DNA of 64,000 bases. It comes from Phycisphaerales bacterium Planc_01. Its GTDB lineage: Bacteria; Planctomycetota; Phycisphaerae; Sedimentisphaerales; Anaerobacaceae. Shown in pieces: positions 25,748-38,289 of this stretch. The stretch is from positions 1 to 64,000 of the forward strand of contig LVBB01000128.1 of the NCBI GenBank assembly GCA_001603075.1, written 5' to 3'. The notes below the pieces were generated by a model, which was not told the DNA's origin, did no database searches, and saw only the letters and a program-made list of their open reading frames with translations. Position 1 is the stretch's first letter. Each line of letters begins with the position of its first letter. Position numbers and translations under genes: made by a program.

Positions 25748-28700
25748 ATGACGGAACGGCATTTCTCGAGTAAGAGGCGTCACAACGCACTGTTTGCGGT
25801 TCTCCTTGGCCTCTGCATGCTGTGCAATGGACCCTTGTCGGCTTCCGGCCAAGGCGTCCCGTCCGGGGGAACCGATCATCGGTTCATTTCCCTGACCCAC
25901 ATCTCTCCCGATCGCGCCAGGGAGTTCCTCTCGAGACTCAACCTGGCGACCGCCTCCCGCATGCCGGGGACCGATGCCCTGCTGGTGACGGCTGGGCCGG
26001 AGGACCTTCAGAAGGCGGTGGCCCTTCTGGGGCTTGTCGATGCCCCAGGCGACTTCGAGGTGCGACAGATCGGGCCGATGTCCAGCGACCGGGGTCTGCC
26101 GTCCAACGAGCGAATTGCCGCCGCCGTAGGCAGCATCTGCATCGGAAGCTTTACCCATCCTCCGCTTCAGACGGGTATGGCCAAGGCCATCGTCGATGTA
26201 CACAACGGTTCGATCTGGGCCATTGCGCCAATCTTCCAACTCCAGGACATCGTCCTTGCCGTCGAGCTGGGACCGCAGGTGCTGGAACAGCGAAAGGCCT
26301 CGTCCGGCCAGGGCGTCGCGGGCGTCGTTCCGACGACAGCCGGCGAACCGAATCTTGCCGCACAGGGTCCGAGAACATCATCGCCGGCCTGGTCCGGGGT
26401 CTCGGCCAATCAGGCCGATTCAGAAAAGATCATCCTGCCCGACGACATGCAGCGCAAGCTCCTCGAGACGCGTCTGTGGGCCAGTGAACTGAGCGTTGAT
26501 CGCGCGGGAACGTCCAACATCGGGCTGCTGCCCGCTCGTCTGCTCGAAGCCGAGCGCCACCCTCTGGCTCTGGACCTGGCGTTGGGACAGGCCGACGTCA
26601 ATTCGGCCTCGGTGCCGCTTGCGGATTCAGCCGCCGGTGTCGCCCAGGGGCCCGGAAGAGAGTCTTTGCTGCGGCCCGGGCAGATCGTGCCGGCCCAAGT
26701 CAGTTCGGCCGGTCGCGCCGGTGTGCCGCAGCCGTCGAGCCAGACGTCGCCGTCCGCCCCCGCCGCAAGCGGATATGAATGGGCGGCCTTGTCGGAGGAC
26801 GACCGCATCGTCGATTTGAACCTGCCCGAGAGGCTCCCGGTGATCCAGTTATTGGACCTCGTCGCCAAGTACATGAATCTGGATTACATCTACGACCCCG
26901 CCAAGATCACGGGGGAAGTGACACTCAAGTTAAATGGCGACCTGCGTGGGTCGATGAAGGTGAAGGATCTGTATCTTCTTCTGGAGTCCGTGCTGAAGTT
27001 TCAGAATCTCGTCATGACGCGACACAAAGGCAATATCGTCACGATCGTCCCGGTCACCGAGGCGCTCGACGTCGACCCCGGGCTTGTGGGTCCCGGTGGG
27101 CGGGCGGTGGAGGCCGGCGACGTGGTCGTCACGCGCGTGTTCCAGCTCCAGTACATCGACACGACCAGCGCCCAGAATCTCCTGGACAGCATGCGGCTGT
27201 CTATCGGTGTGACGCCCATTCCGGAGAGCGGGACGATGATCGTTACGGCCTATGCCCATCGGATGGCGCGGATCGAGCAGTTGCTGAGCATGGTGGATCG
27301 GCCGGGCGAGCCACGCCGATTCCGCTTCCGTCAGCTCCGGTACACCATGGCGATGAGCCTGGCGGAGAAGGTCAAGGCCCTGGCCGAACAGCTTGAAAGC
27401 GTTTCGGTGACGGTGGGCACCGATCAGACGGGCGCCACGCCGCCGAAGCTCGCGGGTGAATCCGAGGTGGCCTATCGTCAGAGGTTGACTCGTCTGCGGG
27501 CCCAGCAGGCGGCCCAGGCGACGGCGGCGGCCCGAGCGGCCGGCGGCGCGACGCCGACGGAGACGACGGCCAAGCCCGGCGTGTATCTGGACGCCGACGA
27601 ACGAACCAATCGCATTCTCATGATCGGTGTCAAGGATCAGTTGGACCTCGTCGAGGACCTGATTGATTCACTGGATGTCGAGCAGCAGGACCTGCGTTCG
27701 ATGAAGCTCTATCGGATTCGACACGTTGACGCCGAAGAGGTTCGCAGCAAGCTGCGGGAACTGGGGATCATCACGACACTGCCGGAGACGGGCACCGCCG
27801 GTCGCCTCACGGGCCAGCCGCGCGCGACCGGGCAGCAAACCGCTGCACAGCAGGCGGCCGCCGCGGCTGCGGCAGCCAGAGCGGCGGCAGCCGTCAGCCC
27901 GACGGCGGCAGGCATGACGCCGGAAGTGGACGAGAAGGGACCGGTCGGCGAGCCCCAGGTCGTGGTGGTCGAAGCCACCAACTCGCTGCTCGTCAATGCC
28001 ACCGCCGAACAGCATGCCCGGATCGAGACCATCATCAGCTTCGTGGACAGTGAGACGCACGAGGACGAAATCCCGTATCGGATCTATCCCCTCGAGAACT
28101 CCTCGCCCGGCCACCTGGCCGAGGTGTTCCAGAGTCTGATCCAGGAGACGACGGAGTATCAGGACCCCGAAGGCAAGATCCAGACGAGCGTCACCAAACG
28201 GCGCGAGCAGGAGATCACCATCGTTCCCGATCCCAATACGTACTCGCTGATCGTGTACGCCAGCAAGAAGAACCAGGAGTGGATCTCGAATCTGGTCAAG
28301 CAACTGGACAAGCGTCGACCGCAGGTCCTGATCGACGTGACCCTGGTGGAGATCACCAAGACCGATGCGTTCAACTACGATCTCAACGTGATTCACAGCA
28401 TTCCCGACCTGGCGTACACGTCGGGCCTGACCGGGGGGATTGCCGAGGGCGTCACGTCGGGAACGATTCTGGACCGACTGGCGCAGAGCGACCGCAGTCA
28501 GTTCGCCGATTTCCAGTGGACCGGCGACAACTTCCGGGCGTTCTACGGCGACAAGCACATCAACGCCTTGCTGACGGCCATGCAGTCCAAGAACTACGGG
28601 CGCGTGCTCGCCAAGCCGAAAATCCTGGTCAACGACAACGAGCCGGGTGAAATCAAGACGACCGACACAACCTACGTCGAGAAGACCTCGTCGATCCCCG

Positions 28701-29254
28701 TCAGTTCGGGCGGCGCGGGCACCGACACCACGCTGATTCAGACGGCCACCGATTACACGCCGTATGAGGCCGGCATCACGCTGAACATCACGCCGCACAT
28801 CAGCGAGGGGGACCTGTTGCGTCTCAACATCAAGCTCGTCCGCTCCGATTTCACGAGTGAAGACCCGAAGAAGCCGCCGAACACGACGGCCAGCGAACTC
28901 AATACCGCCGTGACCGTACCGGATGGAAGCACGATCATCCTCGGTGGATTGCTCAAGCTCAATCAGAACAAGGGAGGCAAGAAGGTCCCGATCCTGGGCG
29001 ATATCCCGCTGGTCGGCGGCCTGTTCCGAGGCGTGAGCAATTCCGACCGGGAGAGCAAGCTGTACATCTTCGTCAAGGCCGAAGTGATTCGACCCGATCT
29101 GGCCAACGGCCGCGCCATGCAGGAACTGGAGCGGCTCAGCGAGCGGAACCGGCTGGCCTTCGAGCAGCATGAGAAGGAGTTTCAGAATTACCAGAACTGG
29201 CCCGGGATCAAGTCGAAACCGGTCCAGCCGGAACGAGTCCTCGAAGCCCAATAG
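25748..29254 (+). CDS. gspD: type II secretion system secretin
   Basis: A 1168-residue outer-membrane secretin, much longer than the usual 650-750. A signal peptide (LFAVLLGLCMLCNGPLSASG) is followed by about 320 residues of unassigned sequence. An N0-like domain begins near 352 (DRIVDLNLPERLPVIQLLDL), followed by repeated N1-type ring domains. These are separated by Ala/Gln-rich low-complexity segments near 580 and 700. The C-terminal secretin domain starts near 935 and contains LAKPKILVNDNEPGEIKTTD and VPDGSTIILGGLLKLNQNKG (about 1057). The channel passes folded substrates across the outer membrane. First of the tightly spaced gspD to gspM series. Confidence 0.93.
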   Translation: MTERHFSSKRRHNALFAVLLGLCMLCNGPLSASGQGVPSGGTDHRFISLTHISPDRAREFLSRLNLATASRMPGTDALLVTAGPEDLQKAVALLGLVDAPGDFEVRQIGPMSSDRGLPSNERIAAAVGSICIGSFTHPPLQTGMAKAIVDVHNGSIWAIAPIFQLQDIVLAVELGPQVLEQRKASSGQGVAGVVPTTAGEPNLAAQGPRTSSPAWSGVSANQADSEKIILPDDMQRKLLETRLWASELSVDRAGTSNIGLLPARLLEAERHPLALDLALGQADVNSASVPLADSAAGVAQGPGRESLLRPGQIVPAQVSSAGRAGVPQPSSQTSPSAPAASGYEWAALSEDDRIVDLNLPERLPVIQLLDLVAKYMNLDYIYDPAKITGEVTLKLNGDLRGSMKVKDLYLLLESVLKFQNLVMTRHKGNIVTIVPVTEALDVDPGLVGPGGRAVEAGDVVVTRVFQLQYIDTTSAQNLLDSMRLSIGVTPIPESGTMIVTAYAHRMARIEQLLSMVDRPGEPRRFRFRQLRYTMAMSLAEKVKALAEQLESVSVTVGTDQTGATPPKLAGESEVAYRQRLTRLRAQQAAQATAAARAAGGATPTETTAKPGVYLDADERTNRILMIGVKDQLDLVEDLIDSLDVEQQDLRSMKLYRIRHVDAEEVRSKLRELGIITTLPETGTAGRLTGQPRATGQQTAAQQAAAAAAAARAAAAVSPTAAGMTPEVDEKGPVGEPQVVVVEATNSLLVNATAEQHARIETIISFVDSETHEDEIPYRIYPLENSSPGHLAEVFQSLIQETTEYQDPEGKIQTSVTKRREQEITIVPDPNTYSLIVYASKKNQEWISNLVKQLDKRRPQVLIDVTLVEITKTDAFNYDLNVIHSIPDLAYTSGLTGGIAEGVTSGTILDRLAQSDRSQFADFQWTGDNFRAFYGDKHINALLTAMQSKNYGRVLAKPKILVNDNEPGEIKTTDTTYVEKTSSIPVSSGGAGTDTTLIQTATDYTPYEAGITLNITPHISEGDLLRLNIKLVRSDFTSEDPKKPPNTTASELNTAVTVPDGSTIILGGLLKLNQNKGGKKVPILGDIPLVGGLFRGVSNSDRESKLYIFVKAEVIRPDLANGRAMQELERLSERNRLAFEQHEKEFQNYQNWPGIKSKPVQPERVLEAQ

Positions 29255-29287: not shown

Positions 29288-30994
29288 ATGAAGAACTTGT
29301 TGATACAGACAGCGCAACGGACGGGACTGGTCAAGGTCGAACAACTGACCAGCTTCCTGGACCAGAACGCCGGGCAGGGACGCCTCGACGAGGTGCTGCT
29401 CAGTTGCCCGTACTTTACCGAAGACGTGGTGCTCAAGCTGTTTGCCGAGTCCCTGGGCTGGGAGTATTTGCCGGAGATCTCGGAGAAGTCCGTTCCTCGC
29501 GAATTCATCGAATCCGTTCCACCGATGTATGCCCAGCACCATTTCCTGATCGGCATCAAGTCGGAGGACAGCAACGGCGAGCTGACCGTCGTCCTGTCCC
29601 GCCCACTGGACGCCAACGTGCTGGACAACGTCTCGAAGATGACGGGGATGCCGGTCAAGCCGGCGGTGGCGACGCGGGCGGCCATCACGGCGGTGATCGA
29701 CGTCGCCTACGAGCAGCGCAACACGGTGATCGAAGAGGTCGCCGAAGAGCTGGACTCGCAGAACCTCGATCAACTCGTCGACGAGGTCTCGGCCTCCGAC
29801 GACCTGCTCGACGTGGTCAACCGCCCGCCGGTGATCCGGCTGGTCAACGACATTCTGTTCCGCGCCCTTCAGTTGCGGGCCAGCGATATTCACGTGCACC
29901 CGTACGAGACCAAGATCCAGATTCGCTATCGGATCGACGGCATCCTGTATGACGTGCTGACGCTGAACCGCAACGTACTGCCGTTGATTACCTCTCGCAT
30001 CAAGGTCATGGCGGGGATGGACATCGCCGAGCGCCGGATGCCGCAGGACGGCCGGTCCAGCGTGCGGCTCGGGCAGCGCGAGGTGGACCTCCGCGTGAGC
30101 ACCGTCCCGACCAGTTTCGGCGAGCGCAGCGTGCTGCGTCTGCTCGACAAGAGCACGGGCGTGTTCGCCCTGGAGGAACTGGGGTTGTGGCCGGAGGACC
30201 TCAAGAAGCTCGATGCGCTGCTGCATCGCGCTCACGGCGTGATCTTCGTGACCGGCCCGACCGGCAGCGGCAAGAGCACAAGTCTCTATGCCTATCTGAA
30301 TCGAATCAACTCGGCCGAGAAGAATGTTCTGACGATCGAAGACCCCATCGAGTATCAGCTTGAAGGCATCAGCCAGATCCAGGTCGCCAGCAAGAAGGGC
30401 ATGACGTTCGCCACCTCGCTTCGGCACGTCCTGCGTCAGGACCCGGACGTGATCATGGTCGGCGAGGTCCGCGACATCGAGACGGCCCGCATGGCGATCC
30501 AGTCGTCGCTGACGGGCCATTTGGTCTTCAGCACGCTCCACACGAACGATTCGGCCGGCGCGGTGAGCCGTCTGCTGGACCTGGGTGTCGAGCCTTATCT
30601 GGTCAGTTCGTCGCTGATTGCGATCATCGCACAGCGGCTGGTGCGTCGCGTCTGTCCCGACTGCAAGCGGCCGATGACGCCGGCGCCCCACGAACTGAGA
30701 GACCTCGGGCTCGAATCGGTCGAAGAGCATAAGGATGCGAAGTTCTTCGTCGGCGAGGGCTGCTCGCGGTGTTTCCAGACGGGCTATCGCGGGCGAACGG
30801 GCATCTATGAGGTGATGCTCATCAGCGAGTCGATCCAGGAGATGATCTACCGGCAGGAAACGGCCGGACAGATCAAGAGGCTGGCCGTCCAGGCGGGCAT
30901 GCAGACGTTACGTATGGACGGGGCCCGCAAGGTCCTGGCCGGGATCACGACGGTCTCGGAGGTTCTGAGAGTGACCCAGGCCGACGTATCGTAG
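29288..30994 (+). CDS. gspE: type II secretion ATPase GspE
   Basis: A 568-residue cytoplasmic hexameric ATPase that powers pseudopilus assembly. It has an N-terminal MshEN-like domain (about 1-150), then FRALQLRASDIHVHPYE. Walker A is GPTGSGKST near 322. The Asp box follows in VLTIEDPIEYQLEG, Walker B in RQDPDVIMVGEVRD, and the His box in FSTLHTNDSAGAVSRLLDLG. A zinc-binding loop with CPDCKRP and CSRCF (about 456 and 495) is typical of GspE/PilB. It lies 33 bases after gspD. Confidence 0.95.
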   Translation: MKNLLIQTAQRTGLVKVEQLTSFLDQNAGQGRLDEVLLSCPYFTEDVVLKLFAESLGWEYLPEISEKSVPREFIESVPPMYAQHHFLIGIKSEDSNGELTVVLSRPLDANVLDNVSKMTGMPVKPAVATRAAITAVIDVAYEQRNTVIEEVAEELDSQNLDQLVDEVSASDDLLDVVNRPPVIRLVNDILFRALQLRASDIHVHPYETKIQIRYRIDGILYDVLTLNRNVLPLITSRIKVMAGMDIAERRMPQDGRSSVRLGQREVDLRVSTVPTSFGERSVLRLLDKSTGVFALEELGLWPEDLKKLDALLHRAHGVIFVTGPTGSGKSTSLYAYLNRINSAEKNVLTIEDPIEYQLEGISQIQVASKKGMTFATSLRHVLRQDPDVIMVGEVRDIETARMAIQSSLTGHLVFSTLHTNDSAGAVSRLLDLGVEPYLVSSSLIAIIAQRLVRRVCPDCKRPMTPAPHELRDLGLESVEEHKDAKFFVGEGCSRCFQTGYRGRTGIYEVMLISESIQEMIYRQETAGQIKRLAVQAGMQTLRMDGARKVLAGITTVSEVLRVTQADVS

Positions 30995-31075: not shown

Positions 31076-32293
31076 ATGCCGAGATATCAATACACGGCGA
31101 TCGCCGCAGGGGGCAAGAAGGTCAAAGGGACGATCACCGCCGAGAGTCCCTACGCCGCCCGCAAGCAACTGCGCATGCGCAGCGTTCACCCCTCGTCTGT
31201 TGCCGAGATCTCCTCGGCCGCTCAGGGCCAGCGACTCCTGCTCTCCTCGCTTCGCAAGGTCAGCAAGTCGCAGATCGTCGACTTCACCAAGCAACTGGCC
31301 ACACTGCTCAACTCGGGCATCAAACTGACGGAAGCCCTGTCGGTCCTGACGCTTCAGACTTCGGATCATCGGTTCAAGACGGCGCTGACCGAGATTCGCG
31401 ACCGCGTCGTGACCGGCGAGTCGTTCACCGACGCCCTGAGTGAGTATCGCGACTACTTCGATGTGATCTACGTCGCGATGGTGCGGGTCGGCGAGGTCAC
31501 CGGCACGCTGGGCGGCAGCCTTCGGACCATCGCCAATTTCATGGAGAAACGCCAGCGAGTCGAGGCGAAGGTCATCACCGCGATGATCTACCCGATCGTG
31601 CTGATCTGCTTCTGTCTTCTGGCCGTCCTGATCCTCACGACCCAGGTCATCCCGAAGATCGGCGCGCAGATCGAGCGGGCCGGACAGGAACTGCCCTGGA
31701 TCACGGCGCAACTGATGAATTTCAGCCACATCGTCATGAGCTGGTGGATTCTGGTCATCCTCGCCGGATTGGCGGCGATCGTCCTGGCCTTCCGCAAGAT
31801 CTTCAGCACGGAACGCGGCGCGTATCTGCGGGACAAGTTCCTCCTGTCTCTGCCGTTCTTCGGGCCCCTGATCAAGCAGCGCGTGGTGGCCCGTTTCGCC
31901 TCGACGCTTTCGACGCTGATCGGCTCGGGACTGGCGATGGCCGAGTCGCTTCGCGTGGTGGCCGAAACGACGGGCAACAGTCTGATGAAGCGGGCGATCC
32001 AGCACGCCCGAGAGCGCATCCTCGCCGGTGCGGATATCGCCGCGCCGTTGCGCGACAGCGGTGTGATCGATCCGGCCATCGCTCATATGGTGGCTGTCGG
32101 CGAGAAGAGCGGCGAGCTGGAGACGATGCTCAAGAGCATCAGCGAGAACCTCGAGTCCTCCACCGACGTAGTGATAGAGCGTCTCAGTGCCGCGGTGGAG
32201 CCGGTGATCATCATTTTCATGGCGGGTGTCGTCGGCGTGATCGCCTACGCCACCATCCTGCCGATCTTACGAATCTCCGTAGTGAACTTTTAG
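31076..32293 (+). CDS. gspF: type II secretion inner-membrane platform protein GspF
   Basis: A 405-residue integral membrane protein anchoring the assembly ATPase. It has two T2SSF domains of about 120 residues, each starting with FTKQLATLLNSGIKLTEAL-type sequence (the second is RFASTLSTLIGSGLAMAESL). Membrane helices lie near 165-195, 220-240 and at the C-terminus (VIIIFMAGVVGVIAYATILP). The N-terminus MPRYQYTAIAAGGKKVKGTI is characteristic. It lies 81 bases after gspE. Confidence 0.95.
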   Translation: MPRYQYTAIAAGGKKVKGTITAESPYAARKQLRMRSVHPSSVAEISSAAQGQRLLLSSLRKVSKSQIVDFTKQLATLLNSGIKLTEALSVLTLQTSDHRFKTALTEIRDRVVTGESFTDALSEYRDYFDVIYVAMVRVGEVTGTLGGSLRTIANFMEKRQRVEAKVITAMIYPIVLICFCLLAVLILTTQVIPKIGAQIERAGQELPWITAQLMNFSHIVMSWWILVILAGLAAIVLAFRKIFSTERGAYLRDKFLLSLPFFGPLIKQRVVARFASTLSTLIGSGLAMAESLRVVAETTGNSLMKRAIQHARERILAGADIAAPLRDSGVIDPAIAHMVAVGEKSGELETMLKSISENLESSTDVVIERLSAAVEPVIIIFMAGVVGVIAYATILPILRISVVNF

Positions 32294-32315: not shown

Positions 32316-32756
32316 ATGAAGGAGAGCAGAAAGCGACAAGTCCGAACCGGTTTTACGATGGTCGAGCTCATGGCCGTCCTGATCATTCTCGGACTGCTGG
32401 CGGGCGTCGTGGTCAAGAATTTCGTCGGGCAGACCGAGCGGGCGAAGGTCACGACCACCAAGGCCAGTCTGCGGCAGTTGGCCAGCGCCGTCAACCAGTT
32501 CTACATGGACACGAATCGCTATCCCACCGAGGATGAGGGACTGTACGCCCTGATCGAACCGCCGTCCGACGTTCAGAATTTCCAGCCCGGCGGCTACCTC
32601 GATACGACGGATGTTCCCACCGACGGCTGGGGCAACGAGTTCATCTACGAACTGTATCCCGAGAGCGGCAAGCCGTTCGTCATCAAGAGCCTCGGGGCCG
32701 ACGGTCAGGACGGCGGCGAGGGCTACAATGCGGACCTGCTCAGCACCGACCGCTAA
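32316..32756 (+). CDS. gspG: major pseudopilin GspG
   Basis: A 146-residue prepilin. The class III signal has Gly12 before Phe13, with Glu17 at mature position 5 (GFTMVELMAVLIILGLLAGV). The globular part has the GspG hallmarks RYPTEDEGLYALIEPP, GWGNEFIYELYPESG and the C-terminal SLGADGQDGGEGYNADL loop that binds calcium. It forms the main shaft of the pseudopilus after processing by a prepilin peptidase not present in this window. The ATG at 32316 follows AGGAG. Confidence 0.95.
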   Translation: MKESRKRQVRTGFTMVELMAVLIILGLLAGVVVKNFVGQTERAKVTTTKASLRQLASAVNQFYMDTNRYPTEDEGLYALIEPPSDVQNFQPGGYLDTTDVPTDGWGNEFIYELYPESGKPFVIKSLGADGQDGGEGYNADLLSTDR

Positions 32757-33288
32757 TCGGATCGGCGGCTTCACGCTGATCGAGCTGATCGTCGTCCTGT
32801 CCATGCTGGCGCTGTTCGTACTGATGGCTCAGGTGAACCTGTTCGGCATGCTGCGCCGCAGCACGTTCAAGGCGCAAGTGCAGGGTTTCGTTTCGGCCAT
32901 GCAGATGGCGGCCTCGACCGCCGCCGAGACGGGGCGTCGCTACGAGGTGATCGTGGATGTCACCGAGCAGACCTACCTGCTTCGCCGGATCAGCTCGTCG
33001 AATCTGGCCGAGGTGCTCGATGAAGAGATCGTGGTCGACGGGCACTTCGGCGACAGTTGCCGCGTTTCGTACGTCGAATTCGACGACGGCACCTATGCCA
33101 ACGAGGGTCGTGCCAAGTTTCGCGCAGGGCATTCCGGCTGGCAATACGGGGGCAAGGTCGTCTTTCTCGATGAGAGCGAGCAGGTCCATACCGTCGCGGT
33201 CGGGAGGCTGACCCCGATCGTGCAAGTGCTTCCGGGCAACCCGGAACTGATGCGTCCCAAAGCCAAGGAGCAAGTGTCGTCGTTTTGA
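32728..33288 (+). CDS. gspH: minor pseudopilin GspH
   Basis: A 186-residue prepilin overlapping the gspG 3' end by 29 bases in another frame. The processing site is GGFTLIELIVVLSMLALFVL, with Glu at mature position 5. The remainder is beta-rich (RRYEVIVDVTEQTYLLRRIS), as in GspH/FimT proteins. The ATG lies after GAGGG within gspG. Assigned GspH from order and the FTLIE motif; no sequence alignment was made. Confidence 0.8.
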   Translation: MRTCSAPTANRIGGFTLIELIVVLSMLALFVLMAQVNLFGMLRRSTFKAQVQGFVSAMQMAASTAAETGRRYEVIVDVTEQTYLLRRISSSNLAEVLDEEIVVDGHFGDSCRVSYVEFDDGTYANEGRAKFRAGHSGWQYGGKVVFLDESEQVHTVAVGRLTPIVQVLPGNPELMRPKAKEQVSSF

Positions 33289-33322: not shown

Positions 33323-34162
33323 ATGAACGCAAACCGGTCCAATTCGTTGAGCACAACGTGTGGAATGGCGCGATCCCTCCGCACGGGTGCGTTTACGCTT
33401 CTGGAGGTCATCACGTCTCTGGCCATCCTGGCTTTGGCCAGTTCGAGCGTGCTGCTCGTGATCCAGCGCTGCGTGGCCACGGCCGCCAACTCCGCCTTCC
33501 AGACGGTGGCGTTCGAGATGGCCCGTGAGAACATGGAGAAGCTCCTGGCCTCAGAGACCCTCAGCGAGCAGGTGGAATACGGCACGAGCGAGCGATATCC
33601 CAATATCACCTGGCGCACGGTAGTAGAGGCGTTTTCTGAGCCGGTGGCCGGACAGATGTGGCTTCGCGCCGTCTGCTCGGCCGAGTACACCGATGCAACC
33701 GGCCAGACCCAGACGGTCCAACTGGTTCACTGGATTACGACGCTGACCGATCAGCAGGCCGAAGAACTCCTCGATGATGAGGACCTCGAAACACTCGCCG
33801 CCGAGCAGCTTCTCGACACGGTCGAAGGGGCCGCCCGCTATGCCGGGGTCGATGCCGATACGATCGGTCAATGGGTCGAAAACGGCCTTCTCACGACCGC
33901 CGATGGCGCGTTCATCAAGCACAATCTGGACATCTATGTGCGTAGCCATGGGGACCCGACCGACGAGGAGAAAGCTCTCCAGGTCGAATCGATTGCGGCC
34001 TTGGCGCTGATGCGCCAGGAGACGGCGGGCCGGAGCGGCCGCGAAACCGACACCTCGACACCCAGCAGCGGTGTGGACCCGGCCACCGGATTACGCTATG
34101 ACGAGCTCGAGAAGATGGAGGTCCCTGAAGTCATGGAGTTGCTCAGGAGCCGGCGGAACTGA
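33323..34162 (+). CDS. gspI: minor pseudopilin GspI-like, with long C-terminal extension
   Basis: A 279-residue prepilin, about twice the usual GspI length. The N-terminal signal reads GAFTLLEVITSLAILALASS. Glu would be at mature position 5 only if processing follows Ala23 rather than Gly22, a deviation from the usual Gly at -1. The pseudopilin core ends near 140. The extension holds an acidic segment and then ARYAGVDADTIGQWVENGLL (about 170-190), which resembles a MerR/excisionase helix-turn-helix. The start is uncertain: an ATG at 33365 is also possible. The position between gspH and gspJ supports GspI. Confidence 0.72.
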   Translation: MNANRSNSLSTTCGMARSLRTGAFTLLEVITSLAILALASSSVLLVIQRCVATAANSAFQTVAFEMARENMEKLLASETLSEQVEYGTSERYPNITWRTVVEAFSEPVAGQMWLRAVCSAEYTDATGQTQTVQLVHWITTLTDQQAEELLDDEDLETLAAEQLLDTVEGAARYAGVDADTIGQWVENGLLTTADGAFIKHNLDIYVRSHGDPTDEEKALQVESIAALALMRQETAGRSGRETDTSTPSSGVDPATGLRYDELEKMEVPEVMELLRSRRN

Positions 34163-34199: not shown

Positions 34200-35009
34200 A
34201 TGAAGACGGCATACGGACAATCGAGATACGGCCGGGGCTACTCTCTGGGAGAGATGCTCGCCGCACTGGTCATCGGGGCGATGGTGCTCACCGCCATTCT
34301 CGGGGTCTACGGCCAGGCCAACCGGGCCGCCGAAGCCGTCCTGGACCGGATCGAATCGCCCTCTCTGGCGACCGAGATCCTGCAGCGGATCGCCGAGGAC
34401 CTGGACCGGACCCTGGGCGCCGATGAAAACGTTGCGGTACAGATCCGAAACGGGTTCGACAACGGATTCGTTACCGCCGAGTTGATCGTCCGCCGCACAC
34501 TGAAAGACGCCGAGAACAAGGAGCAGACGCTCGAAGAAATCATCTGGCGGGCCGGCTACGACTACGACAGCGCCGTGCCCGGCATGGTGATCTACCGCAG
34601 TCGCACGGGAGTGGGGCTCGAGGACAAACTCCTCGACGCGCAGCGGGCAGACTGGGAGAGCAACTACACGTTCGTGCCGCTTTGCCGGGGCGTGACGTAT
34701 TTCCGGATCGAAGTGCCCCGAGGAGACGGCGCCGTGGACCGATGGCCGGGCCCGTCGGCGCCGCCTGGAGTCCGCGTGATCCTGTCGTTCGCCAAGCCGT
34801 ACGAAACCGTACGTGGCACGCTGGATGTGTTCGATGAGCAGAAGATCAGCCGGACCATCGCGGTCGACCGGGTTCGGGCGATCCGATTCGCCGCCGAGGG
34901 TTCGCAAACCAAGGCGACAGACGCCAACAACGCCGGTACGCAAGTCGAAGGTGGTTCTGGAGGCGGACGAGTCGATGTGCAGCCGATTCTGCCGACAAGA
35001 CGGAGATAG
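34200..35009 (+). CDS. gspJ: minor pseudopilin GspJ-like
   Basis: A 269-residue prepilin with processing site RGYSLGEMLAALVIGAMVL. Gly13 precedes Tyr14, and Glu18 is at mature position 5. The globular part is longer than usual for GspJ and ends in a low-complexity Gly/Arg tail. GspJ joins GspI and GspK at the pseudopilus tip in characterised systems. The ATG at 34200 lacks a strong ribosome site. It is followed immediately, with a 35-base overlap, by the gspK gene. Confidence 0.75.
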   Translation: MKTAYGQSRYGRGYSLGEMLAALVIGAMVLTAILGVYGQANRAAEAVLDRIESPSLATEILQRIAEDLDRTLGADENVAVQIRNGFDNGFVTAELIVRRTLKDAENKEQTLEEIIWRAGYDYDSAVPGMVIYRSRTGVGLEDKLLDAQRADWESNYTFVPLCRGVTYFRIEVPRGDGAVDRWPGPSAPPGVRVILSFAKPYETVRGTLDVFDEQKISRTIAVDRVRAIRFAAEGSQTKATDANNAGTQVEGGSGGGRVDVQPILPTRRR

Positions 35010-36261
35010 CGCCCGGGAACGCCGGGGTGTGATCCTGCTGGTCACGCTGGTGATCCTGGTCATCCTCTCGACGCTCGGGTATACCCTGAGCGCCCAGGTG
35101 GCCGCGCGTCGGCATCGGGACCGCTTTATCGTCGATTATGCGCAGGCCCAATACGCCTGCACCTCCGCCATGAAGTATGCCATGACTTCGCTCGCTGACC
35201 TGCAGCCCTCGGTGGTCCGCGATCCGAACGCCCCCGATTTCTCCGATGTGTTCGCCATGACCGAGCCGCAGTACCAGGAGTTGCTGGCCCAGTTGGCGGC
35301 TGAGAGGGCGATCGATGCCCGCCGGCTTTCCGGGGGCGGGACGACCAGGAATACGAGGGCAACGGATGCAAACGACCTCAACCAATATTCCGCAACGGCA
35401 TCCGTGACCATACCGGGTCCGTACGGTCCCCGCTGGCCGCTCGTGACCGAACCGGTCGAGTTCGAGATCGGCTCGGCCAAGGTGACGATCGAGATCGAGG
35501 ATGAAAACGCCAAGTACCCCCTCGGCTGGGCGCTCATCCAGGAGGAGAAGCTCAAGGCCGAGGCCGGGGCGGGGTTCGTCACGTTCTGCGAATGGATGGG
35601 CTATCGGCCCAACGAGATCCAGGGCCTCCGCGAGGACCTGGCTGCGGTGGGCAAGGTCAGACCGTTCGCCGTGGAATTCAAAGCCCTGTCGGTGGCGACC
35701 ACCGCTCCGACGAGCCTGAGGGAACGGGTGACGCGGACCTCCACGGCGGGCAGCAAGACGCCCGTACAGCGTCCCATGCGAACCACGGTGACCGTGACCG
35801 AGCAGATGGACCAGCAAAACGCGGCCTTCGCCCGGCTATTCCACAGCTCTCTGATCGATACGGAGATCTTCACGCGGCCGAGCGTTGTCAGCAGCACGCG
35901 CAACGAGTCGGCGATGAAGTACCTTGGGCTCTGGGCGACCCGACAGGTCAACATCAACACGGCCCCGCGCCACGTCCTCGAAGCGGCCCTGACCCTCGGC
36001 AGCATCGCCGATGCCCCGAAGATCGCCGATGCGATCATCCAGCGCAGGCGAGTGAAACCATTTTCGGACATTGAGGACGCCAAGAAAGACATTTTCCGCC
36101 ATGCCGCGGCCATTGAGAAATGCCAGGCCTTTCTCACGACGACCAGCACAGCCTTCACCGTGCGGGTCACGGCGGTCAGCGGGGTGGCCAGGACGGTTGC
36201 CGTGGCGGGCGTCACCAAGGACGGTCGCAAAGTAAAGCGGATCGCTGTGATATCCGACTAA
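34975..36261 (+). CDS. gspK: minor pseudopilin GspK
   Basis: A 428-residue tip pseudopilin. The N-terminal membrane segment RRGVILLVTLVILVILSTLG lacks the Glu5 residue, the known GspK exception. A large alpha domain follows, with MKYAMTSLADLQPS and, near 320, VNINTAPRHVLEAAL. That helix-hairpin-helix-like part is shared with other GspK proteins. A tail with TVAVAGVTKDGRKVKRIAV is beta-rich. The ATG at 34975 follows GGAGGCGGA and overlaps gspJ, consistent with coupled translation. Confidence 0.88.
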   Translation: MCSRFCRQDGDSARERRGVILLVTLVILVILSTLGYTLSAQVAARRHRDRFIVDYAQAQYACTSAMKYAMTSLADLQPSVVRDPNAPDFSDVFAMTEPQYQELLAQLAAERAIDARRLSGGGTTRNTRATDANDLNQYSATASVTIPGPYGPRWPLVTEPVEFEIGSAKVTIEIEDENAKYPLGWALIQEEKLKAEAGAGFVTFCEWMGYRPNEIQGLREDLAAVGKVRPFAVEFKALSVATTAPTSLRERVTRTSTAGSKTPVQRPMRTTVTVTEQMDQQNAAFARLFHSSLIDTEIFTRPSVVSSTRNESAMKYLGLWATRQVNINTAPRHVLEAALTLGSIADAPKIADAIIQRRRVKPFSDIEDAKKDIFRHAAAIEKCQAFLTTTSTAFTVRVTAVSGVARTVAVAGVTKDGRKVKRIAVISD

Positions 36262-36331
36262 GTAAGGGCCGCTTCCTGTGCGCCCTTTGGGACAGGCAAA
36301 AGGCCGTCCTGATTCTGGGAGATACTTGAGC

Positions 36332-37771
36332 ATGGAGCTACGAAAGCGTTTAGGCATATACTTAAAAAAGGATCGGGCGACCGTCGTCTGCCTCGTTCCG
36401 CACGGGGGGCAGGCCCGTCTGCTGGGGGCTTTCTCGCTCGATCTCGATGGTGACGAGCCGTCCGGACAGCAGGGGCTGGCCGACCGGATCGCACGGGCAT
36501 GCGCCGAACGGGGCCTGAAATTCACCGAGTCTGCGGTGGCCCTGGACTGCGCCCTGTTCATGCAGCACAGCGTTCACAGCGAGTTCAGCGACTATAAGAA
36601 GATCGCGGCCACCGTCCGTTTCGACGCCGAAGAGACGCTTGCCACGGACATCAGCGAGATGGCGGTGGCCTTTCGGATCGTCTCGAAGGGTCAGACTGGG
36701 GCCCATCTGGACGTGTTCACCGCACAGCGGAGCATTCTGTCCGACATCCTGCTGTCGTTGCAGAGCAACGGCATCGATCCGGTCGCGGTCAGTCCGGACG
36801 CGTGGTGCCTGTCCAGATATCTGGCCCATTACGGCACGCCGGAGGAAGGCGGTCGCGTCTATGCCCTGCTTTCGGATGCCCGCGGCTACCTGGTCGGCGC
36901 CGCCAATCAGGACGAGGTCTCCTTCACGCGGGCCTTTCCAGTGGGACCGTCACAGGACCGTAAGGCCCTGCTGACCCGCGAAACCCTGGTGACGGCGGCC
37001 TTGGGCGGTCCGGGCAGTTCTACGACCAGACTGTGCGTCCTGGACGCTTTGAACGGTGAAATGGCCTCAGAACTCGGCTCCCGCGTTCCGTTTGACGTCG
37101 AAGACTGCGACCTCGCTGCGATGGCGCAGATCGATCGCAGCGAGCTGACCGATTGCCGCAACGTCGTAGACTTCGCCATCGCCTATGGTGCCGCGCTGCC
37201 CGAGTCGGAGAAGGACAAAGGCGCCAACTTCCGCAACGATCACATGCCGTATCTGGGCAAGACCCTCAGATTGCAGAGGGCCGTCCGGTTCCTGAGCATC
37301 TCCGTGACGGTCTTGCTGTTGGCCCTCGGGGTCTATGTCCAGACGCAACTGATGCTGGTGAACCGATATCGGTCGGTACAGCGAGAGATGCTGGAGCCCG
37401 ACTATCTGGCGGTCATGCCGGGCGAAGAGAAGCTGCCGGAAACGATGCGCGCTGCGGTCCAGAAGCTCGCCAGCGCCCTGAGAAAGATCCGGGCGAACAA
37501 GGGTATCGGGGCCGATCAGGGGACCATCTCAGCCAAACTGACGATGGTGCTGCAGGCGCTCAACGCCTGCGCGGGTCAGACCGACCTGAATGTCGATACC
37601 ATTACGATCAGCGGCGCCAACATCGTCATCAGTGGCGACACTTCCAGGCGGCCCAATACGTTGAAGGTCTTTGACGCGATGGAGAAGGCCGGTCTGGCGC
37701 GCAAGAAGGAAGGCTACGTCGAGAAGGGCGGCCGTGACACGTTCACAATTACCGTTGAGCCCAAGAAGTAG
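36332..37771 (+). CDS. gspL: GspL/PilM-like T2SS inner-membrane protein
   Basis: A 479-residue protein with a cytoplasmic actin-like half (about 1-290; RLGIYLKKDRATVVCLVPHG, then SAVALDCALFMQHSV, then ALLSDARGYLVGAA). One membrane helix (VRFLSISVTVLLLALGVYV, about 317-335) and a periplasmic ferredoxin-like part follow. This is the GspL architecture that recruits GspE. Similarity is structural rather than motif-based. The ATG has GGGAG at longish spacing. The position after gspK and before a GspM-like gene supports the call. Confidence 0.7.
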   Translation: MELRKRLGIYLKKDRATVVCLVPHGGQARLLGAFSLDLDGDEPSGQQGLADRIARACAERGLKFTESAVALDCALFMQHSVHSEFSDYKKIAATVRFDAEETLATDISEMAVAFRIVSKGQTGAHLDVFTAQRSILSDILLSLQSNGIDPVAVSPDAWCLSRYLAHYGTPEEGGRVYALLSDARGYLVGAANQDEVSFTRAFPVGPSQDRKALLTRETLVTAALGGPGSSTTRLCVLDALNGEMASELGSRVPFDVEDCDLAAMAQIDRSELTDCRNVVDFAIAYGAALPESEKDKGANFRNDHMPYLGKTLRLQRAVRFLSISVTVLLLALGVYVQTQLMLVNRYRSVQREMLEPDYLAVMPGEEKLPETMRAAVQKLASALRKIRANKGIGADQGTISAKLTMVLQALNACAGQTDLNVDTITISGANIVISGDTSRRPNTLKVFDAMEKAGLARKKEGYVEKGGRDTFTITVEPKK

Positions 37772-37788: not shown

Positions 37789-38289
37789 ATGCGTGATGTA
37801 TTCAAGAACCCGATATTCTATTACGTGCTGGCCCCGATCCTCGTGGGCCTGTGGCCTCTGCTGGTCTGGGGAATGTATCTGCCGAAGGCCGAGAAGGCCT
37901 GGGAGGATGATCGGAAGCTCTATGATGAGGCCAAGACCAGTATCGTCGAGATTCTGGAGAAGGACCCGGACCGCCTGAAGATCGCTGCAGAGAGCAAGAG
38001 CCTCGGCAGGTTCACCTATGCCGAAGCGGTCGACCGCGTGGCGAATCTCTGTCGCATTCCATCGAGCAACTACACGCTCAGCACGGGGATCCCCGTCACC
38101 TCCGGGGGAAAGGAAAGCCAGCAGGCGCGGGTGAACCTGGTGGATGTCAGTATTGTCCAGGGGGCGAAATTTCTCTCGACGATCCATTCGATGTGGGTGA
38201 ACCTCAATTGCGATCGGATCCGGCTGACGAAGAAGCCGGGCATGCCCGACCGCTGGGATATGGACCTGACCTTTCAGTACTCTTACTGA
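37789..38289 (+). CDS. GspM-like small membrane protein
   Basis: A 166-residue protein with one N-terminal membrane helix (YYVLAPILVGLWPLLVWGMY, about 11-30) and a periplasmic remainder. The size, topology and place after gspL fit GspM, but no signature motif exists to confirm this. The stop codon lies inside a long palindrome (38284-38305), so the end of this gene is also the putative terminator of the operon. Confidence 0.55.
   Translation: MRDVFKNPIFYYVLAPILVGLWPLLVWGMYLPKAEKAWEDDRKLYDEAKTSIVEILEKDPDRLKIAAESKSLGRFTYAEAVDRVANLCRIPSSNYTLSTGIPVTSGGKESQQARVNLVDVSIVQGAKFLSTIHSMWVNLNCDRIRLTKKPGMPDRWDMDLTFQYSY

Follow-up and report, generated by a model that had tools for sequence, protein, structure and literature searches.

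A minor pseudopilin encoded in a planctomycete type II secretion system (T2SS) gene cluster carries a winged helix-turn-helix (wHTH) domain that, as judged by profile comparison and predicted structure, is homologous to the N-terminal DNA-binding domain of the phage terminase small subunit (TerS). The gene occupies positions 33323-34162 of the window (the whole stretch of DNA that was analysed, 64,000 nucleotides in length), and its product is genuinely a modular pseudopilin, restricted to one lineage, with a domain of the phage-terminase type. The history that we regard as probable is that a phage TerS-type wHTH was captured once into gspI and then lost repeatedly, that its ability to bind DNA has most likely disappeared, and that it now contacts a protein.

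Gene context and pseudopilin identity

The genes of the cluster follow one another in the order gspD, E, F, G, H, the HTH-bearing gspI-like gene, J, K, L and a GspM-like frame, where the names H, J, K and M are given from weak model matches, the prepilin motif or gene order:

25748-29254, forward strand: gspD secretin, 1168 amino acids (Secretin and Secretin_N)
29288-30994, forward strand: gspE ATPase (T2SSE, E = 1.3e-137)
31076-32293, forward strand: gspF (T2SSF)
32319-32756, forward strand: gspG major pseudopilin (T2SSG, E = 1.7e-29)
32611-33288, forward strand: open reading frame containing a gspH-like pseudopilin with a provisional start (N_methyl; TIGR01708 at E = 2.4e-4, under its cut-off)
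33323-34162, forward strand: gspI-like minor pseudopilin gene with the HTH insert, 279 amino acids, ATG at 33323, stop codon ending at 34162 (prepilin motif, cluster position, fold match to XcpV and EpsI)
34200-35009, forward strand: gspJ-like pseudopilin (prepilin motif, with N_methyl under its cut-off, and gene order; without a GspJ model match)
34813-36261, forward strand: open reading frame containing a gspK-like gene (T2SSK, E = 2e-4, 22.1 bits against a cut-off of 24.2)
36326-37771, forward strand: gspL (T2SSL, E = 1.5e-6; TIGR01709, E = 5.3e-9)
37789-38289, forward strand: gspM-like, by position in the gene order, without a family match

The secretin displays four Secretin_N stretches, the best at residues 778-859, and a Secretin match at residues 944-1115.

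The gspI-like gene is placed between gspH and gspJ, which are themselves named by the prepilin motif and gene order with weak model matches. The reading frame and its HTH-like motif lie where a preliminary description of this DNA had put them, and the call of a GspI pseudopilin made there is backed by the gsp cluster, the prepilin motif and the fold match to XcpV and EpsI: the product is a GspI-like minor pseudopilin of a planctomycete T2SS. Its parts are:

33386-33409, forward strand: prepilin cleavage motif GA/FTLLEV, with the cut expected before the Phe encoded at 33392; Ala at −1, Glu at +5
33392-33748, forward strand: mature pilin core, consisting of the N-terminal helix (mature residues 3-53) and β-strands (to mature residue 118), from the AlphaFold2 model and the matches to 5bw0_F and 2ret_A
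33749-33808, forward strand: helical linker from the pilin core to the HTH (mature residues 120-139), partly of low confidence (AlphaFold2 pLDDT of 66 for 121-130 and 84 for 131-140)
33809-33964, forward strand: predicted winged HTH domain of the phage TerS type, residues 163-214
33833-33892, forward strand: the motif of the preliminary description, ARYAGVDADTIGQWVENGLL, residues 171-190, spanning part of helix 1, the turn and the recognition helix
33950-34024, forward strand: post-wing segment, approximately residues 210-234, aligning to the start of the TerS helical region (hhalign)
34076-34159, forward strand: C-terminal tail DPxTGLxYxELxxM..., kept among domain-bearing GspI proteins, with a clear match in one of 24 tested domain-less GspI proteins

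A class III prepilin signal, GA/FTLLEVITSLAILALASSSVLLVI, is present, with Glu at +5 and a hydrophobic helix behind it (mature residues 3-53). The processing site had been described as odd for having Ala at −1 if Glu is to be at +5. Both residues are as described, but the arrangement is not odd: Ala stands at −1 in 46 and Gly in 37 of 83 unique orthologues (86 unique rows less three with an incomplete or shifted N-terminus), and prepilin peptidase cuts at glycine or alanine according to the available part of PMC3244431. For the window protein, the N_methyl model gives 17.1, short of its cut-off of 21.2; 21 of 27 members match this model at E ≤ 1.

An AlphaFold2 model of the whole protein (62-sequence alignment; mean pLDDT 86.8, pTM 0.48) comprises the pilin core, a partly weak helical linker, a confident second domain, a poorly defined stretch and a helical tail; given the pTM, the model does not fix how the HTH domain is placed relative to the pilin. 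The core superimposes on XcpV (5bw0_F) with a Z score of 9.0 and an rmsd of 2.3 over 82 residues, and on 5vtm_V and EpsI (2ret_A) with Z scores of 8.8. The curated GspI model TIGR01707 gives 14.6 bits (E = 0.036) against a cut-off of 44.35, and the ComGE, PilV and ComGF models give about 20 bits. Foldseek searches with the whole model and with the domain alone returned no match at E ≤ 0.001.

The tail was sought with a profile in 24 of the 26 domain-less GspI rows (one of the other two is open at a contig end and one has an ambiguous base). One domain-less protein, L038, scored 19.8 bits, where the highest of 1200 shuffles was 9.8; L116 (8.5), L028 (4.3), L108 (2.8) and L037 (2.6) fell between the shuffled 95% point (1.6) and that maximum, and the remainder were at shuffled levels or unreported. 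Insertion of the HTH between the core and an old conserved tail is therefore only partly supported.

The inserted domain and its fold

Predicted alone, the domain has a pLDDT of 91.8 and consists of helices at 9-16, 20-28 and 41-49 with short strand pairs; in the whole-protein model, the pLDDT of its blocks is 94-96. The top three structures retrieved by VIA-align are DNA-binding domains of TerS proteins (7lxs, Z = 6.7; 7lwr, 6.5; 7lw0, 6.5), followed by mycobacteriophage Xis (4j2n, 6.0), SoxR (5.7), BldC (5.7) and CbpM (3ucs_B, 5.6), with lambda gpNu1 (1j9i, 5.4) lower down. Because Z differences of less than 1 are ties, the leading TerS structures are tied with those that follow them, such as Xis, and the fold alone reads as an excisionase/MerR/TerS-type winged helix.

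The HTH signal of the single sequence is weak: TIGR01764 (‘excise’) matches the window protein at E = 0.074, and Pfam gave no HTH match to it. In the family, HTH_17 and TIGR01764 are each matched by 20 of 27 orthologues at E ≤ 1, with best E-values of 1.8e-4 and 2.3e-5, respectively. These matches, the match to a TerS described below (E = 2.7e-11) and the predicted fold show that the HTH signal is beyond chance and is carried by the family. Matches to phrog_2658 and DUF2680 were judged to be chance.

The insert is, in its predicted structure, a genuine wHTH of the excisionase/MerR-like superfamily. An HTH-like insert after the pilin core had been proposed from the motif, and it has held up on both counts on which it was to be checked, as structure prediction returns HTH geometry (Z scores of 5-6.7) and the same insert is present in close homologues. 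The likeness to the excisionase/MerR pattern is right as to the superfamily but not as to the nearest relatives, which are TerS proteins.

Relation to the terminase small subunit

Over residues 157-228, the window protein matches a protein encoded at a second locus of a genome of the same family, G024 (E = 2.7e-11). This protein, P0002, is a phrog_57 terminase small subunit (E = 2e-14), as is P0003 of genome G020 (1.1e-12), and the gene that follows it in G024 encodes a phrog_15 terminase large subunit (E = 2e-146). A TerS from a viral contig, L120, is 83% identical to that of G024 and again precedes a phrog_15 gene (E = 1.1e-145); L120, L121, L152 and L153 all belong to phrog_57 with E-values of 2.4e-14 or better. 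In the phylum sample, two proteins from another planctomycete family (L183 and L185) are phrog_57 TerS with E-values of 4.3e-18 and 4.7e-21. G024 also encodes a domain-bearing GspI (L021) besides its phage-type TerS/TerL pair (L031:4733-5224), so that possible donor and recipient types occur together in it.

A profile of the GspI domain, run over 61 genomes, gives 74.8 bits to the G024 TerS and 34.1 bits to the G020 TerS, with all other non-GspI proteins at 25 bits or less. The viral-contig TerS proteins score 59-70 bits and seven further viral loci 31-61, whereas the non-TerS HTH proteins examined reach at most 28 bits per match, one two-HTH protein summing to 42. A generic excisionase/MerR origin was set aside on this comparison (59-75 bits for close TerS against at most 42). 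The match at one viral locus, L155, which by eye is sugar-dehydratase-like, was judged to be chance.

In an hhalign comparison of 58 GspI segments (two of 60 left out) with 11 TerS segments, the two families align with a probability of 99.5 over 78 columns at 37% identity, from AAEQ(I/L)(I/L) ahead of the HTH to the first helical segment behind it. Taken alone, the wHTH gives a score of 107.7, where 60 column shuffles reach no more than 14.3; for the post-wing segment alone, the score is 14.6 and the highest of 60 shuffles 12.8, and the segment ahead of the wHTH, taken alone, gives no signal; the homology thus likely reaches past the wing into the TerS helical region, though the signal there is modest. 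The best GspI/TerS pair is identical at 30 of 49 positions, and the window's own domain is identical to the same TerS at 20 of 49.

By sequence, the PDB yields the TerS structures 7lwr (0.012), 7lw0 (0.044) and 1j9i (0.065), with Xis gp37 and lac repressor at similar E-values; its top row, the designed repeat protein 8etq (E = 0.0016), is a sum of five 2.8-bit pieces and was taken as chance, and a profile of the whole protein found no match among PDB sequences. Phage-record searches gave weak matches. Single members match phrog_2474 in 55 of 55 cases and phrog_57 in 45 of 55, and the window's own domain matches them at E = 1.7e-4 and 0.16, respectively. As these PHROG matches do not separate TerS from excisionase/MerR proteins, the TerS link is drawn from the profile scores, the profile-profile alignment and the trees, and by these the GspI wHTH is homologous to the N-terminal DNA-binding domain of TerS.

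The rest of TerS, which comprises the oligomerisation and large-subunit-binding region, is absent from the GspI-like protein: the homology ends after 78 columns and the remainder is pilin core and tail. Consequently, the GspI-like protein is not a terminase but shares a domain with one. No large terminase gene lies beside the gspI-like gene, whose neighbours are gsp genes. By eye, an extra N-terminal segment (like VEIAEKQRHLYLLERVKNN) precedes the wHTH in several of the TerS frames L032:4038-4709, L120:2857-3489, L121:2818-3477, L162 and L164-L166, and is absent from others.

Distribution, gain and loss of the domain

A GspI-like protein is present in 56 of 61 genomes, and within the window's family 27 of 37 genomes have a match to the domain profile in a frame of GspI size, as against none of the 24 genomes outside it. 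Across the order, 69 of 161 genomes match the domain profile at E ≤ 1e-4, and 66 of them, all from the window's family, do so with 70 bits or more in a frame 226-371 residues long; the sequences inspected were the 60 unique domain-bearing GspI proteins and ten of the loci from this order-wide search. In a sample of 392 genomes of the phylum, seven match, and only the window's own genome exceeds 28.2 bits; at most 16 candidates were scored per genome here, and genomes with more may hold further matches. A scan of named genomes yielded 97 relatives, of which 80 were kept, and these are labelled as planctomycete groups save two ‘uncultured bacterium’ records.

The GspI set of 117 rows reduces to 86 unique sequences, 60 with the domain and 26 without. 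The tree built from the pilin core (84 rows, two being left out for an incomplete N-terminus) calls for eight changes in the presence of the domain, at least four of which are forced by well-supported branches; for instance, the domain-less L103 groups with the domain-bearing L085 and L081 at 98/94 and 99/87. In trees of the domain itself (60 GspI with 6 TerS; 39 GspI with 11 TerS), a branch with 99/98 support sets all GspI copies apart from TerS. The simplest story is that the domain was gained in the ancestor of the family, probably once, and lost several times. Several gains may also account for the core tree, which is compatible with them, but the domain tree has the GspI copies on one side. 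The repeated losses show that the domain is not essential to secretion in general.

Loss of the DNA-binding surface

The recognition helix of TerS reads R-T-I-R-R-W, and the commonest letters at the same positions of GspI are E-T-I-E-Q-W. Because one of the viral scans searched for a pattern that included RTIRRW, selection partly accounts for the conserved arginines in the TerS proteins that it found; L031, L032, L152 and L153, which came from searches that did not fix the motif, all have RTIRRW. At the TerS arginine positions 17, 20 and 21, only 3, 7 and 10 of 60 GspI domains have a basic residue, the usual residues being Glu, Asp, Gln or Asn, and in 41 of the 60 all three positions are non-basic. 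The window's own recognition helix, DADTIGQWVENGL, carries a net charge of −3 and is not basic.

Over 49 aligned columns, the net charge ranges from −11 to −1 in the 60 GspI domains and from −2 to +7 in 11 TerS domains, the −2 being that of the viral TerS L153/L159. The net charge per residue of GspI is −0.099 in the core, −0.136 in the domain and −0.100 in the tail. The whole of GspI is therefore acidic, not the domain alone, and the charge shift may be a general adaptation of an exported protein. Taken together, the substitutions suggest that the GspI wHTH probably no longer binds DNA; with a recognition helix that is mostly acidic or neutral, the domain most likely contacts a protein instead.

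Possible function and alternative readings

Combining the trees with the distribution, we propose that gspI acquired a TerS-type segment from a phage on a single occasion, in the ancestor of one family, and that several lineages later lost it. From the topology of prepilins, the domain would face the periplasm, and it would lie near the tip of the pseudopilus if GspI sits there as in known systems, in which GspI is located at the tip. The same scaffold most likely now serves to contact a protein, which could be a substrate of secretion or an adjacent part of the T2SS, for example the secretin. A more specific version of this proposal, which we hold tentatively and with somewhat less than even confidence, is that the secretion machine took over the domain with which phages recognise DNA for packaging and remodelled it into a head, at the tip of the pseudopilus, that recognises cargo or the secretin; GspI would then be modular, and a terminase domain would have been re-used outside DNA packaging.

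The domain is under purifying selection: its dN/dS is about 0.16-0.33 in five close pairs, and 8 of 27 invariant columns of an alignment of 27 domain-bearing rows (A1) fall within mature residues 147-189. These figures bear on the most serious competitor of a protein-contacting domain, namely that the insert is a tolerated C-terminal decoration, a folded spacer without a ligand in a naturally variable tail. We regard such a decoration as rather unlikely. It would account for the repeated losses, for the Glu/Pro/Asn-rich or Gly-Asp repeat linkers that several domain-less relatives have in the same region, and for the amino-acid identities of the five close pairs, in which the domain changes faster than the core in three, equally fast in one and more slowly in one. 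A spacer sits poorly, however, with the invariant columns, with dN/dS well below 1 in all five pairs and with the 66 genomes, out of 161 in the order, that have a matching frame. Dispensability itself does not discriminate, as it is expected for the recognition of a subset of substrates but equally for a dispensable decoration. Another reading grants that the relation to TerS is real and reverses or reroutes the transfer, with phages taking the domain from gspI or both parties taking it from a third HTH family. This is improbable to our minds, even though GspI and TerS form two sides of one branch with a weak rooting and generic HTH families score as well as terminase families in the single-sequence PHROG comparison (55 of 55 for phrog_2474, 45 of 55 for phrog_57). 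The GspI form occurs in one bacterial family only (in the survey of 161 genomes of the order and the sample of 392 genomes of the phylum with at most 16 candidates each), whereas TerS with such an N-terminal domain is found in solved lambda-type terminases and in another planctomycete family (L183, L185); moreover, when the tree is rooted with generic HTHs, GspI falls inside TerS (forks at 83-86%, the outgroup not forming one clade), which weakly argues for transfer from TerS to GspI.

Least likely of all, in our estimate, is that, outside the cytoplasm, the HTH has remained a binder of DNA or of some other polyanion, with the pseudopilus serving DNA uptake or the holding of extracellular DNA. 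The wHTH geometry is predicted to be intact and some basic residues persist, namely Lys or Arg at position 37 in 56 of 60 domains, a basic residue at positions 44 and 45 in 24 and 21 of 60, and at least one at positions 17, 20 or 21 in 19 of 60; against these stand the 41 domains with none at the latter positions and net charges of −1 to −11. ComEC is encoded in the window's genome, but with 23 of 27 genomes that carry the domain and 32 of 34 that do not encoding it, it shows no link, and DNA uptake was set aside as a role; the gspI-like gene lies in a gsp cluster, with no competence gene noticed beside it by eye. Of the two roles offered in the preliminary description, DNA binding for uptake is unlikely and not supported, as most of the 60 recognition helices have lost their basic residues and ComEC shows no link, and the repurposed protein-binding module fits better.

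To our knowledge, the recognition of folded substrates by the T2SS is an open question, and the tip formed by the I, J and K pseudopilins is an obvious site for such recognition. A compact domain of known fold that one lineage grafted onto GspI and sister species lost again offers a clean test of which secreted proteins depend on it, and the proposed history suggests that a domain of phage packaging shifted from recognising DNA towards another task in a cell-envelope machine.

Comparison with known systems

The window protein shares with the T2SS GspI proteins XcpV and EpsI the class III signal, the hydrophobic helix, the pilin fold (5bw0, 2ret) and the place in the gsp gene order, but is longer by about 130 residues, which include a folded domain, and scores only 14.6 bits with the curated gspI model (cut-off 44.35). 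In the part of PMC8179133 available, GspI and GspJ are termed nonmodular, and modular pilins are described as pilins onto which modules are grafted for presentation. The type IV pilins PilB (with a vWA domain) and PilC (with a lectin domain) are a precedent in that they present a functional module at the filament; they differ in that no HTH or terminase module is named, the term ‘helix-turn-helix’ being absent from the main text of that source as available.

With the Nu1-type TerS proteins (lambda gpNu1 1j9i, 7lw0, 7lwr, 7lxs; phrog_57), GspI has the wHTH in common and homology over about 78 columns, but it is without the rest of TerS and an adjoining large terminase, is exported and has a mostly acidified recognition helix. 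The Xis (TIGR01764) and MerR families share the superfamily fold and motif (4j2n, Z = 6.0; SoxR, Z = 5.7; TIGR01764 in 20 of 27) and have lower domain-profile scores, at most 42 bits for non-TerS HTH proteins and otherwise at most 28, against 59-75 for close TerS. A precedent for a MerR-like wHTH used on protein is CbpM (structural match 3ucs_B, Z = 5.6), which, according to the available part of PMC4063869, has a MerR-like fold without DNA-contact residues and binds a J-domain; CbpM itself is no pilin: it dimerises through a coiled coil and regulates the co-chaperone CbpA. In the open-licence literature, we found no report of a pseudopilin or GspI with an HTH domain, or of a terminase domain re-used outside DNA packaging; PMC5131608 applies ‘helix-turn-helix’ solely to ComEA.

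Long C-terminal extensions also occur in HTH-less GspI proteins of the order (L034:1947-2864, L035:2502-3455, L117:1501-2325 and L119:1501-3237), and those of L034, L117 and L119 resemble one another by eye. Pfam gave no family for L034 and L117, and only DUF2802 for L035 (E = 0.0013, under the cut-off). In L119:1501-3237, GspI and GspJ form one frame of 579 residues via an ambiguous base, which is probably an assembly artefact and not a fusion. The GspI C-terminus may be a general grafting site in the order. At the place of the HTH of its relatives, the domain-less GspI L036:2041-2751 has a Gly/Asp repeat (DDGGGT).
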